A stretch of 64,000 bases of DNA, from NCBI GenBank assembly GCA_016795105.1, contig JAEUIH010000005.1, positions 9,220 to 73,219 on the forward strand, in the 5' to 3' direction. Position numbers and translations under genes: made by a program. The notes under the pieces were generated by a model. The model was not told the origin of the DNA. It did not search any database and saw only the letters and a list, made by a program, of their open reading frames with translations. Shown one piece after another: positions 51,879 through 62,757 of the stretch. Positions within the stretch are counted from its first letter, which is position 1. The number at the start of each line of letters is the position of its first letter. Source of the stretch: Planctomyces sp. (lineage in GTDB: Bacteria; Planctomycetota; Planctomycetia; Planctomycetales; Planctomycetaceae).

Positions 51879-51900
51879 GCTCAGGCAGGAATGCCCGAGC
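51879..51900. repeat. GGCAGGAATGCCC hairpin repeat upstream of the sigma factor
   Basis: GCTCAGGCAGGAATGCCCGAGC folds into an 8-bp stem with one mismatch. It is the same text family as the hairpins at 62736-62882 and 63941-63962. It sits 16 bases upstream of the sigma factor start, in the 84-bp gap after dapL. Confidence 0.65.
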
Positions 51901-53447: not shown

Positions 53448-54704
53448 ATGCTCGTTTGGCGTTCTGTCAGTAAGGTTGCGTTGGCCGGCATCACCGGTGC
53501 AATGCTGATCGCGGGAAGTCCTGCACAAACCGAGGCAGGTGAACCTGTTACGGTTGAGGCGGGAGCAGTCGCTCTCACAACGGGAATCCCAGGAAGTGGG
53601 CCTCTCACCCAGGATGAAATTACGAAATGGCTGAACGATCCAGCCGTCCATGAAGAAGTGAATCTGGAACTGCCGCTGGGACTCAGCCTTGGGCAGGCTC
53701 AGATGAAGGGCCTCAAAGAAAACCCACTCACGCGTGCAAAGATTGAACTCGGCCGACAACTCTACTTTGACACTCGCCTGTCTGCCGACAACACAGTCAG
53801 TTGTGCGTCGTGCCACCATCCGCAGGAAGGTTTTTCCCGCCACACTCCATTCGGTGTCGGTATCGCTAACCAGAAAGGCGGAAGGAATTCTCCCGTCAGC
53901 TATAACAGAATCCTGAGCGATGCTCAGTTCTGGGATGGTCGAGCAGACTCTTTGGAAGCTCAGGCCGTTGGGCCGATTCAAAACCCCATTGAAATGGGAA
54001 ACACTCATGAAGAGGCTGTAAAAACGCTCAAGAAGATTCCTGGCTACAAAATGCAGTTTGAAAAGATCTTCCCGGATTCCGGGGTCACGATCGACAACGT
54101 CGGGAAAGCAATCGCATCGTTCGAACGAGTCCTCGTCACCGGGCCTTCACAGTACGACTACAACGAAGCTTATGGTCGGTTTGCCAGACTTGAAGCGGAA
54201 GACCTGAAGGACCTCGAATCCGATGATCCGGAGATCTATCAGGAATACCTCTCTCTCAAGTCAATCGTTGAAAACAATCCGATGTCAGAGAGCGCTCAGC
54301 GAGGGCAGGAATTGTTCTTCGGTAAGCGGGTTGGCTGCAGTGCCTGCCATGTCGGTGCAAACCTTGCAGATGAGCAGTACCATAATCTTGGCATTGGAAT
54401 GGATGCAAAAGAACCCGACCTCGGTCGCTATGTTGTGACGAAGGAAGAAAAAGATAAGGGTGCGTTCAAGACTCCGACAATTCGAAACGTCGCTCTGTCT
54501 GCTCCATACATGCACGACGGCAGTCTTGCTACTCTTGAAGAAGTTGTCGAACACTACAACAAAGGCGGCACTCCGAACAAATGGCTCAGCAACAAGATTC
54601 CGGCCCTGAAGCTGACTCCGCAAGAGAAGATTGATCTCGTCGAATTCATGCGAGCCTGCACAGGAGAATTTCCAACCGTTCAGTCAGGCCGATTGCCCGA
54701 GTAA
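53448..54704 (+). CDS. Periplasmic di-haem cytochrome c peroxidase (MauG/CcpA family)
   Basis: Reduces hydrogen peroxide (or, in MauG relatives, modifies a substrate by high-valent iron) in the periplasm. 418 residues with a signal peptide (about 1-30). Haem motifs CASCH at 119-123 and CSACH at 297-301; the family blocks ELGRQLYFDTRLS, SPVSYN, FWDGRADSLE.QA.GP, KTPTIRNVALSAPYMHDGS (Met355) and LVEFMRACTGE are all present. GGAGGTAGCAATCT precedes the ATG, a strong ribosome site. A bidirectional terminator follows. Single-gene transcript, probably oxidative-stress related; no regulator is visible. Confidence 0.92.
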   Translation: MLVWRSVSKVALAGITGAMLIAGSPAQTEAGEPVTVEAGAVALTTGIPGSGPLTQDEITKWLNDPAVHEEVNLELPLGLSLGQAQMKGLKENPLTRAKIELGRQLYFDTRLSADNTVSCASCHHPQEGFSRHTPFGVGIANQKGGRNSPVSYNRILSDAQFWDGRADSLEAQAVGPIQNPIEMGNTHEEAVKTLKKIPGYKMQFEKIFPDSGVTIDNVGKAIASFERVLVTGPSQYDYNEAYGRFARLEAEDLKDLESDDPEIYQEYLSLKSIVENNPMSESAQRGQELFFGKRVGCSACHVGANLADEQYHNLGIGMDAKEPDLGRYVVTKEEKDKGAFKTPTIRNVALSAPYMHDGSLATLEEVVEHYNKGGTPNKWLSNKIPALKLTPQEKIDLVEFMRACTGEFPTVQSGRLPE

Positions 54705-54813
54705 TCGAGCAACCGAGTAACAGAGTAACCGCTGACTGACAGATGTCCTGATTTGCAATGCCAGCATGATCTCTCAGTAAACTCCGAAATCGCGGTGAGC
54801 CAAAGCAAAAATA

Positions 54814-54890: not shown

Positions 54891-56465
54891 TTAGACTGAC
54901 GTTGCACCCGCTTTGCCGGATTCAACAACGAATGAACCTTTTGTCACAATTGGTGCACCCGGTTCCGTGACGTTTTCCACAATTCGATAGTGGGACTTCC
55001 ACTCCGCGGGAGTCACTTCACAGGTAACATAACCACGCTGCTGATTGTGAAACTTCACGAACGGGTTTTCTGAGTAGAGTTCGCTCAGATTTTTCGGTTC
55101 TGCGTTCCCATTTCCACCGGAAGACAAAGAAGTGCAGACGAATTCTGTGGCAACCACCGGATCTTCCGCCCGGTCGAAGTCCACCATCAGATTGTTCACC
55201 CAGTTTGAGTGAATATCGCCTGTCAGAACGATTGGATTTGAGATTCTTCGTTCCGCGATGAAATTCAGGAGTCTCTTCCGTGCAACATCGTAACCAGGCC
55301 ACTGATCCATGCTGAACTTCGCCTCGTCTCCGGCAGCTCTGTCGACTCGAGCCATCATGATCTGCTGGCCCAGGATGTTCCAGACGGCGGCAGAGCCGAT
55401 CAATCTCGACATCAGCCAGTGTTCCTGACGATCTCCAAGCATCGTCGCCTTCGGATTCAGGGCTTCAGGCGACAGAGGTTTGAGCCCGTCGCCGTTGGGC
55501 TGATCCGTACGATACTGTCGAGTATCAAGCATGTCGAAGCTGGCCAGCCTGCCGAAGTTGATCTGACGATACAATTTCATGTGCGGTCCTGTTGGCAGGC
55601 TTGTTCGTCGCAGCGGCATGCTCTCATAGTAGGCCTGGTATGAATTGGCTCGTCGCAGCAGGAACTGCACAGGATCTGCGTCCTTCTGCTCAGAGATCTC
55701 CCCGGCACAGTTATTGTCGAATTCATGATCGTCCCAAACCACAAGCCATGGGCAATGAGCGTGCGCAGCCTGCAGTAAACGGTCCGTTTTATATTGAGCA
55801 AATCGAGCTCTGTACTGATCCAGACTCTCGATCTCTGTTCCGTGATGGAGACGCACTCGATCAGGCTTGCCTTCATATTCGTAAATATAGTCGCCAAGGT
55901 GCAGAATCAGATCGTGATTCTCGGCAATCATATGCTCATATGCGGTGTACAATCCCTGCTCATAGTGCTGGCAGGATGTCATTGCAAATCGAAGATGTTC
56001 GGGCAATGTCCCGGCTGCCGGCATCGTGCGAGTTCTGCCCACCGGACTGACGGCATCACCCGCATGAAAGCGATACCAGTACCACGTGTTCGGCTTCAGC
56101 CCATCAACTTCGATGTGCACAGAAAATCCCAATGCAGGAGTTGCCACCTGTTTCCCCTGACGAACGATTTGAGTCATCGAGTCATTCGTGGAGATCTCAT
56201 AGCGCACTTCAACAGGTACCGGTGGCATTCCTCCCAGATCTTCCAGAGGTTGTGGTGCCAGTCGTGTCCATAAGACAACGCCCGCTGGCGAAGGATCACC
56301 CGACGCAACCCCCAGTTGAAATGGGTCCGCTGAAAAACGGACAGGACTGGTTACAGATTCTGCCGCTGCGTCCTGAAGCAATGGCAACAGCAGCATAGGG
56401 CCGCCGGCAAGCACAAAATTTCGACGACTGTGCGCATATTCTCTGAGGTCTGATAATCGCGACAT
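54891..56465 (-). CDS. phoD: PhoD-family alkaline phosphatase / phosphodiesterase
   Basis: Metal-dependent extracytoplasmic phosphatase. 524 residues with a Tat signal (HSRRNFVLAGGPMLLLPLL at 12-30). The N-terminal beta-sandwich is marked by FQLGVASGDPSPAGVVLWTRLAP; the catalytic domain by LHLGDYIYEYEG, VVWDDHEFDNN and IVLTGDIHSNWVNNL, which supply the Fe/Ca ligands of PhoD. Length and order are typical. Divergent from the second phosphatase gene (gap 48 bases), so the two may be co-regulated, for example by phosphate, although no Pho-box could be confirmed. Confidence 0.93.
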   Translation of the reverse strand: MSRLSDLREYAHSRRNFVLAGGPMLLLPLLQDAAAESVTSPVRFSADPFQLGVASGDPSPAGVVLWTRLAPQPLEDLGGMPPVPVEVRYEISTNDSMTQIVRQGKQVATPALGFSVHIEVDGLKPNTWYWYRFHAGDAVSPVGRTRTMPAAGTLPEHLRFAMTSCQHYEQGLYTAYEHMIAENHDLILHLGDYIYEYEGKPDRVRLHHGTEIESLDQYRARFAQYKTDRLLQAAHAHCPWLVVWDDHEFDNNCAGEISEQKDADPVQFLLRRANSYQAYYESMPLRRTSLPTGPHMKLYRQINFGRLASFDMLDTRQYRTDQPNGDGLKPLSPEALNPKATMLGDRQEHWLMSRLIGSAAVWNILGQQIMMARVDRAAGDEAKFSMDQWPGYDVARKRLLNFIAERRISNPIVLTGDIHSNWVNNLMVDFDRAEDPVVATEFVCTSLSSGGNGNAEPKNLSELYSENPFVKFHNQQRGYVTCEVTPAEWKSHYRIVENVTEPGAPIVTKGSFVVESGKAGATSV

Positions 56466-56513: not shown

Positions 56514-57674
56514 ATGGTGATTATGGGCTCTGAAGATTCTGTGAAGAAGGCGGAAAGTTTGCCGCTTTCCTGGAGTGCTGCGGTGCATCGTCGCGAATTT
56601 CTCAAAACAATACCGGCCCTGTCAACAATACCGGCCCTGTCAACAATACCGGCCCTGTCAACAAGCTCAGGTCTGTCAACAAGCTCAGGTCTGTCAACAA
56701 GCTCAGGTCTGTCAGCAGCTGCGGAGTTTACTCCCGGCGGCCAAACGTCGGCCGATCAACAGTTTGGCGACTTGATCATGAGACGGACTCGATCAGACCA
56801 TTTCCAGATGATCTTTCAGCCCAGAGAACCTCGTCCTCTCCGACTCCTTCAGCTCACGGATACTCACTTCCATCCGGGCGATGATACGAACCGAGCCACA
56901 GAAGTCATGCTGAAACAAATTGTTGACCAGCATCAGCCCGACTTCATTGTCCATACGGGCGATTTCGTGAATAACGATTCAGATAAACTCGTTGAATGGA
57001 CGGGAATGGAGATTCTCAACGGACTTGGTCGCCCATGGACTTTGTGTTTCGGAAACCATGACTACCCCGTTCGAAATGCTCCAGGGGCGAAATCACTCGA
57101 AGAAATCCGTCTCGCGATGAAAGATGGATTCCAGGGATATATCGATACCGAAAATACTCGCAGTTATTGCTATCGATACGACCTGCACACCGACAGCGAT
57201 CTGCCGCCAAACGCCTGCCTGTTCTTCTTTCAGGTGGGCTATGCAGAAGGTGATCGAAGGATTTCAGATATTCAACTCTCATGGTTCGAACAACAGCTGA
57301 AGCTCGATCATCAACACGACGTGAATGCGCCGATCACAGTATTCGTCCACATCCCACTGATTGAATATCGAGATCTGTTTGACTCGGGCAAGGCGATCGG
57401 GCAGAAGGGAGAAGATGTCTGCTTCGACAGTGACACCGGCCGATCGTTTGAGCTGTTTCAAAAGTCGGGACGCGTGGCTGGCGTCTTCTGCGGACACGAT
57501 CACGTCAACAACTATTTCGGACCATGGAAGGATATCCAACTGGTCTACGGACGAGTCAGCGGGTGGGGAGGATATGGTCCGAAAGACTGGAAACGCGGCG
57601 GCCGCCTGATCACAATCGACCTAAACAGTCCGAAAGCTCTGCAGGACTTCTCTGAGGTTTACCCGACTCTGTAG
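56514..57674 (+). CDS. Tat-exported calcineurin-like metallophosphoesterase with hexapeptide repeats
   Basis: 386 residues (ATG 56514; ATG 56523 is an alternative). A twin-arginine motif HRREFLK (26-32) is followed by six hexapeptides, TIPALS three times and TSSGLS three times, then SAAAEF. They replace the normal hydrophobic core of the Tat signal and stem from 18-bp DNA repeats at 56607-56714. The catalytic domain has the five metallophosphoesterase motifs: LLQLTDTHFH, VHTGDFVNN, CFGNHDYP, VHIPL and FCGHDHVNNYF. It resembles the purple-acid/DCR2-like phosphatases. Substrate unknown. Its stop is part of a hairpin (57670-57700). Confidence 0.88.
   Translation: MVIMGSEDSVKKAESLPLSWSAAVHRREFLKTIPALSTIPALSTIPALSTSSGLSTSSGLSTSSGLSAAAEFTPGGQTSADQQFGDLIMRRTRSDHFQMIFQPREPRPLRLLQLTDTHFHPGDDTNRATEVMLKQIVDQHQPDFIVHTGDFVNNDSDKLVEWTGMEILNGLGRPWTLCFGNHDYPVRNAPGAKSLEEIRLAMKDGFQGYIDTENTRSYCYRYDLHTDSDLPPNACLFFFQVGYAEGDRRISDIQLSWFEQQLKLDHQHDVNAPITVFVHIPLIEYRDLFDSGKAIGQKGEDVCFDSDTGRSFELFQKSGRVAGVFCGHDHVNNYFGPWKDIQLVYGRVSGWGGYGPKDWKRGGRLITIDLNSPKALQDFSEVYPTL
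56607..56714 (+). repeat. Six 18-bp coding tandem repeats in two types (3+3)
   Basis: ACAATACCGGCCCTGTCA occurs at 56607-56624, 56625-56642 and 56643-56660; ACAAGCTCAGGTCTGTCA at 56661-56678, 56679-56696 and 56697-56714. Copies within each type are identical; the types share 12 of 18 positions, so both derive from one unit. In frame they encode TIPALS and TSSGLS. Confidence 0.95.
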
Positions 57675-57700: not shown

Positions 57701-57720
57701 CCCGCAGCAATGCCCCTGCC

Positions 57721-57774
57721 ACTGGCGGATCGGCAATCACTGGCGGATCGGCAATCACTGGAGCGTCGGCAGGT
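57721..57774. repeat. 18-bp tandem repeat at the 3' end of the receiver gene
   Basis: ACTGGCGGATCGGCAATC is present at 57721-57738 and 57739-57756; a degenerate third copy (11 of 18 matching) follows at 57757-57774. The stop codon of the minus-strand receiver gene lies at 57755-57757, so the array spans the coding end and the downstream spacer. Confidence 0.8.
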
Positions 57775-58150
57775 AGCTTGCCAGCGTTTCTTTCGTAGCC
57801 GGAGAATTGAGCTGAGCTTTCCCAAACCCGTGGACGGTCCCCAGAGCAACAGCTTTTTCCTGCCACTCCGGAAAATTCGAAACCAGCATTACGGGGGTTG
57901 AGGCCGCCGATTCGATCGCGCGAATTGCAGGCAACATGTCGAGTCCATCAGAGTAATCGGCATCCAGCTTTCGATTGATCAGGATCAACCCAACCGGCTG
58001 ACTCTCCAGAATTCGCATTGCATCTGCCGCGCGGTCCGCAGTCAGCACGTCCACCGCAAAATTCCTTGTGAGGTAGTGCGTGATTGCAGCCTGATCCGGC
58101 CTGCACTGGCCAATACTTAGTACCATGACGCGCGGGCGCTCAGAACTCAT
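57755..58150 (-). CDS. Degenerate response-regulator receiver protein (pseudo-receiver)
   Basis: 131 residues with the length and strand pattern of a single receiver domain (VMVLSIGQ, GLILINRKL, PVMLVSN, VHGFGKAQL). Ser91 and Lys111 occupy the switch Ser/Thr and conserved Lys positions. The acidic pocket is lost (SIGQ where DD is expected at about 12-15), and the phospho-acceptor position after LILI is Asn59. Phosphorylation by the usual route is thus unlikely; it may act as a constitutive binding module. It starts 31 bases after the P450 gene, same strand, so the two are probably cotranscribed. No output domain. Confidence 0.75.
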   Translation of the reverse strand: MSSERPRVMVLSIGQCRPDQAAITHYLTRNFAVDVLTADRAADAMRILESQPVGLILINRKLDADYSDGLDMLPAIRAIESAASTPVMLVSNFPEWQEKAVALGTVHGFGKAQLNSPATKETLASYLPTLQ

Positions 58151-62735: not shown

Positions 62736-62757
62736 GGATGGGCATTCCTGCCCGTCC
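62736..62757. repeat. GGGCATTCCTGCCC hairpin
   Basis: GGATGGGCA-TTCC-TGCCCGTCC, a 9-bp stem with one G-U pair. Member of a dispersed palindrome family in this window. Confidence 0.7.

Follow-up and report, generated by a model that had tools for sequence, protein, structure and literature searches.

Duplication inside a twin-arginine signal has been described for the BKC-1 carbapenemase. In the published account a stretch of 16 residues of the h-region is duplicated, the duplication is missing from the nearest relatives, and the signal reaches 46 residues (PMC8262980). Export of BKC-1 by both the Tat and the Sec routes was measured, and removal of the duplication gave lower Tat-dependent activity (PMC8262980). 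At the level of the DNA, bacterial coding satellites with a period divisible by three are described as encoding amino-acid repeats, and the planctomycete Rhodopirellula baltica appears in the table of that survey (PMC6749651). For a tandem array of several units within a Tat signal, we found no description in open PubMed Central texts.

Here we analyze such an array in the window, by which we mean the whole stretch of 64,000 nucleotides of Planctomyces sp. DNA that was studied. We conclude that the Tat-type signal of a calcineurin-like phosphoesterase, presumed to be exported, has very probably grown longer in this lineage through tandem duplication, and that the copies are most likely tolerated.

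The phosphoesterase gene and its repeat array

The array lies at the beginning of a gene for a calcineurin-like metallophosphoesterase (56583–57674, plus strand), which encodes 363 amino acids from its likely start at GTG 56583. The protein matches PF00149 with an E value of 1.3e-15 (58.8 bits, against a curated cut-off of 21.5), and the domain match covers residues 86–308 of the 363-aa form (56838–57506, plus strand). The predicted structure has a mean pLDDT of 83.8, and its best Foldseek match is Rv0805 (3ib7; E 2.3e-9). The Pfam family, the fold and the metal-site motifs are common to the window protein, Rv0805, the purple acid phosphatases and the phosphohydrolase 2zo9. However, identity to 3ib7 is only 16% (TM 0.44–0.53), and the protein is assigned by family and fold, not by substrate. 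The divergently oriented neighbor (54891–56465, minus strand) encodes a PhoD-like phosphatase (PF09423, E 1.3e-109) that likewise opens with a twin-arginine-like segment, SRRNFVLAG. Further upstream an 8-bp array of CCGAGTAA (54697–54731), with 77% matches over 4.4 copies, overlaps the stop codon of a 418-aa frame.

The longest open frame begins at ATG 56514 and would encode 386 aa, but comparison with related sequences indicates that GTG 56583 is most likely the start. Its position, two codons ahead of the first arginine of the RR pair, is that of the starts taken in 12 of 12 relatives; these were chosen by us, and in eight of the 12 no other start codon precedes RR within the open frame. A GGAG sequence is found 8 nt upstream of GTG 56583, and several of the relatives have no clear Shine–Dalgarno sequence. 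The n-region MHRREFLK (56583–56606, plus strand) contains the residues R3, R4, F6 and L7, all invariant across 13 aligned proteins (the window protein and 12 relatives). The stretch just past the repeats is also conserved, reading QQFGDL in the window protein and EQRFGDL in the relatives.

Directly after MHRREFLK, six in-frame 18-bp units fill the 108 bp of 56607–56714 exactly. Three perfect copies of ACAATACCGGCCCTGTCA, encoding TIPALS (56607–56660, plus strand), are followed by three perfect copies of ACAAGCTCAGGTCTGTCA, encoding TSSGLS (56661–56714, plus strand). This is the arrangement read in the original prediction, and the sequence and Tandem Repeats Finder agree upon it; the program finds 100% matches within each sub-array, and describes the entire array as period 36 at 83%. 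The two unit types are identical at 12 of 18 bases. All six differences fall within positions 5–12, clustered in three neighboring codons, while the other ten bases, which span the unit junction, are identical. Elsewhere in the window, adjacent 18-mers as alike as the two unit types are found at 87 of 63,805 overlapping positions, a count to which the window's other repeats contribute. For the perfect tandem 18-mers chance is ruled out. Inspection by eye revealed no decayed seventh unit at either edge of the array, and no viral relatives were confirmed.

The units do not belong to a dispersed repeat family. The exact sequence TCAACAAGCTCAGG is confined to the array genome-wide, with 10 near matches against 16 in a reversed control, and a looser 18-mer pattern gives 12 matches (six of them the array itself) against 10 in the control. 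Another perfect 18-bp tandem duplication, CACTGGCGGATCGGCAAT in 2.3 copies, is present in the window at 57720–57761, 46 bp 3′ of the gene. It adjoins the end of a minus-strand frame (57755–58150), and its unit is unlike those of the array.

The putative Tat signal and its relatives

The sequence HRREFLK near the N-terminus is a twin-arginine motif. The Tat consensus is (S/T)RRxFLK, from which HRREFLK departs solely at the residue before RR. The genome encodes one TatC (E 1.3e-57), and with the RR-x-F-L motif and the PF00149 match this bears out the earlier assignment as a metallophosphoesterase of exported type. Searched up to E 1, the Tat-signal models TIGR01409 and PF10518 both miss the window protein; among six near relatives they report three and one respectively, all below cut-off. 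Because the curated models are silent on the window protein, the Tat assignment rests on motif, context and relatives. An RR-x-F-L motif, an uncharged stretch and an Ala-rich end are common to this signal and the canonical Tat signals represented by the two models. Unlike canonical signals, it is reported by neither model and its longest uncharged stretch near RR has 39 residues, compared with 12–25 in the 12 relatives; in a layout with one unit of each type it would have 15.

The repeats as a whole had been equated with the h-region. A moderately hydrophobic, uncharged h-region is present, and the description suits the TIPALS half (GRAVY 1.17) but not the TSSGLS half, which is near neutral (GRAVY 0.05). 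Judged by hydropathy, the TIPALS block is the predicted Tat-like core and the TSSGLS block a neutral extension of it. The following AAAE (56715–56726, plus strand) is likely to be the end of the c-region and the signal-peptidase site, as predicted from the sequence. For comparison, the hydropathy printed for SufI is 1.36, and the Sec signals of OmpA and DsbA have 2.31 and 2.49 (PMC5539426, Table 1). It had also been proposed that unit number would set both the length and the hydrophobicity of the signal. This holds for length, but peak GRAVY in a sliding window of 15 residues rises from 0.85 with one TIPALS unit (the one-plus-one layout) to 1.11 with two and 1.25 with three, and then reaches a plateau; the best 15-residue values of six near relatives are 1.01–1.61. 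Since more than three TIPALS units leave the peak unchanged, a fine dial of export is not evident from hydropathy alone. In the predicted model the repeat stretch is disordered. Residues 7–54 have pLDDT below 50 and lie outside the folded domain, in keeping with the expectation that the repeats are situated between the twin arginine and that domain.

How general is the array among related proteins? A search of 397 genomes of the class gave matches at E 1e-15 in 13, own genome included. Over the mature part, six relatives match the window protein at 60–65% and six others at 41–46%. The gene was not found in three other genomes of the genus at E 1e-10; a laxer cut-off gives a weak match in the same-genus genome G001 (E 4.2e-4). 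Neither the array nor any tandem repeat was seen in the signal region of any of the 12 relatives. One of them alone (L025) has a tandem within the first 80 residues, a 9-bp repeat in the mature part. No perfect peptide repeat was found at the N-terminus in the 28 loci examined of the 80 genome_contigs loci; of these 28, L036 is without an RR motif near the start, L047 has RRELI, and seven are the same as loci among the 12 relatives. There are 61 residues before a conserved glycine in the window protein, against 32–35 in the six nearest relatives. Subtraction of four units leaves 37 residues, and of five leaves 31.

Short-unit duplication is common in the genus, and the window array is among the longer cases. 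The sampled part of the genome, 992,549 bases, contains 36 perfect tandem arrays with a period of 10–120 (3.63 per 100 kb). The period is divisible by three in 25 of them, six have three or more copies, and 31 lie inside some open frame of at least 80 aa (frame alone, not proof of coding). These counts lend no support to a special 18-bp period, with five arrays of period 18 against nine of period 15 and seven of period 12. Nor do they support an excess over G001, where 400 kb contain 17 arrays, a density of 4.25 per 100 kb that exceeds the 3.63 given above. Perfect arrays are fewer in two other genomes, with 2 and 3 in 200 kb each. With a crude motif filter, perfect repeats near Tat-like signals amount to 1 of 18 in the own sampled genome (the window array), 1 of 14 in G001, 0 of 1 and 0 of 9 in the other genomes, and 2 of 48, both of 9-bp units, in the 80 genome_contigs loci. 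The G001 case is at locus L181, where a Tat-like frame carries a 15-bp doubling (SVSAA) past its hydrophobic stretch.

The genome also contains a dispersed family based on the near-palindrome GGGCAGGAATGCCC, with 647 exact copies (330 + 317) against none in the reversed control. In the window it occurs at 62740 (minus), 62797, 62865 and 63945 (minus), and with one mismatch at 51883. The copies are arranged as short direct arrays and flipped pairs, some of them near contig ends. Elsewhere in the genus, the counts in three further genomes are 30, 11 and 0. There are nine matches to Y1_Tnp (PF01797) in the genome, eight above cut-off, and together with the GGGCAGGAATGCCC family these may possibly constitute a REP/RAYT-like system.

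Origin of the array

The copies are identical and in frame, and the signal is over-long compared with those of the relatives; these observations argue for expansion by slippage, as in the original prediction. On our best reading of the sequences, the simplest history would be a one-plus-one ancestor followed by four extra 18-bp duplications, a direction of change that we infer. The ancestor would have had one TIPALS and one TSSGLS unit, in a signal about as long as those of the relatives. Two further copies of each unit would then have been generated by slipped-strand mispairing, or by recombination at short direct repeats. Units that keep the frame would be tolerated in a region that is unfolded, that is removed after export, and that needs merely an uncharged and moderately hydrophobic character. 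In a one-plus-one layout built from pieces of the window, AACAA (5 bp) and CTGTCA (6 bp) each recur with an 18-bp offset; they sit at the seams of the layout, one for each unit type, and are plausible seeds for the slippage. We infer both slippage as the mechanism and continued export by Tat. The extra copies most likely have little effect on function, the signal probably still serving.

A number of observations count against this history. The direction of change rests on relatives at about 57–62% identity, whose h-regions are not alignable unit by unit. The six differences between the unit types, lying in three neighboring codons, are not predicted by plain point divergence of a duplicate. 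The silence of the Tat-signal HMMs on the window protein also counts against it, and small duplications in this place are found elsewhere too, one exported relative (L050) having a 9-bp tandem in the first 70 codons from RR.

The expansion could instead have been adaptive, the TIPALS copies restoring or raising the hydrophobicity of the h-region and hence Tat binding, with unit number under selection. The peak GRAVY of the one-plus-one layout is below that of every one of the six near relatives; with three TIPALS units it lies within their range. Greater h-region hydrophobicity is described as strengthening Tat binding in SufI (PMC5539426), and the lower Tat-dependent activity of BKC-1 without its 16-residue duplication (PMC8262980) points the same way. 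Yet TSSGLS has been amplified equally while adding no hydrophobicity, a value of 1.11 is already attained with two TIPALS units, and comparable duplications occur in many other, non-exported contexts. We consider selection for hydrophobicity unlikely. Perfect in-frame copies can slip, and this might suggest a contingency locus where unit number often differs between cells or strains and so varies export of the enzyme. But the locus is present as a single copy in the assembly, and a search of the 391 contigs gave no alternative allele (one full match and one 18-bp chance match, E 0.14); moreover in-frame 18-bp units are unable to switch the gene off, and there are just three copies of each type. 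We regard a contingency locus as very unlikely. There is a similarly small probability that the signal is variable in length, slippage in the two adjacent 18-bp arrays altering its hydrophobic portion and its neutral spacer independently; export of the phosphoesterase would then drift in fine steps with the frame kept.

Two further explanations place the anomaly in the data or the annotation. In the draft genome, which consists of 391 contigs, another repeat family is found at many contig ends, and a short-read assembly might have altered the number of units. Set against this, 108 bp is within the span of ordinary reads, and both blocks are clean and keep the frame. An artefact is highly improbable. 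The in-frame ATG at 56780 would, if it were the true start, leave the repeats untranslated, and a start downstream of the repeats had been named as the finding that would overturn the original prediction. It is contradicted by the invariant R3, R4, F6 and L7 of the 13 aligned proteins together with the conserved QQFGDL, which lies upstream of ATG 56780, and we give it almost no credence. Lengthening by tolerated tandem duplication is the reading that we prefer.

Comparison with known repeats in signals and genes

As it stands, the array is one among many tandem duplications of this genome, located in a tolerant stretch; the presumed slip is ordinary and the place unusual. It provides a clean natural example of a putative Tat signal lengthened by repeat expansion, in which hydrophobic and neutral blocks could be trimmed unit by unit. 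If the signal still exports its protein, it would show how long an uncharged Tat signal can be, and if unit number varies this would offer a route to the tuning of export.

Like the coding minisatellites described in PMC6749651, the window array is made of short, perfect tandem units with a period divisible by three, contained in a gene; unlike the minisatellites described there, it is placed in a signal peptide. The signal also resembles that of BKC-1 as described in PMC8262980. Both signals contain an in-frame tandem duplication that their nearest relatives lack, and both are over-long, 46 residues in BKC-1 and about 47 to AAA in the window protein. BKC-1 has one duplication of 16 residues, whereas the window signal has six units of six residues of two types; the cargo differs, and the window signal is predicted from its sequence. 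By analogy, the array may be regarded as a further instance of the known signal duplication and coding minisatellite, in which the units, of two types, are shorter and more numerous.
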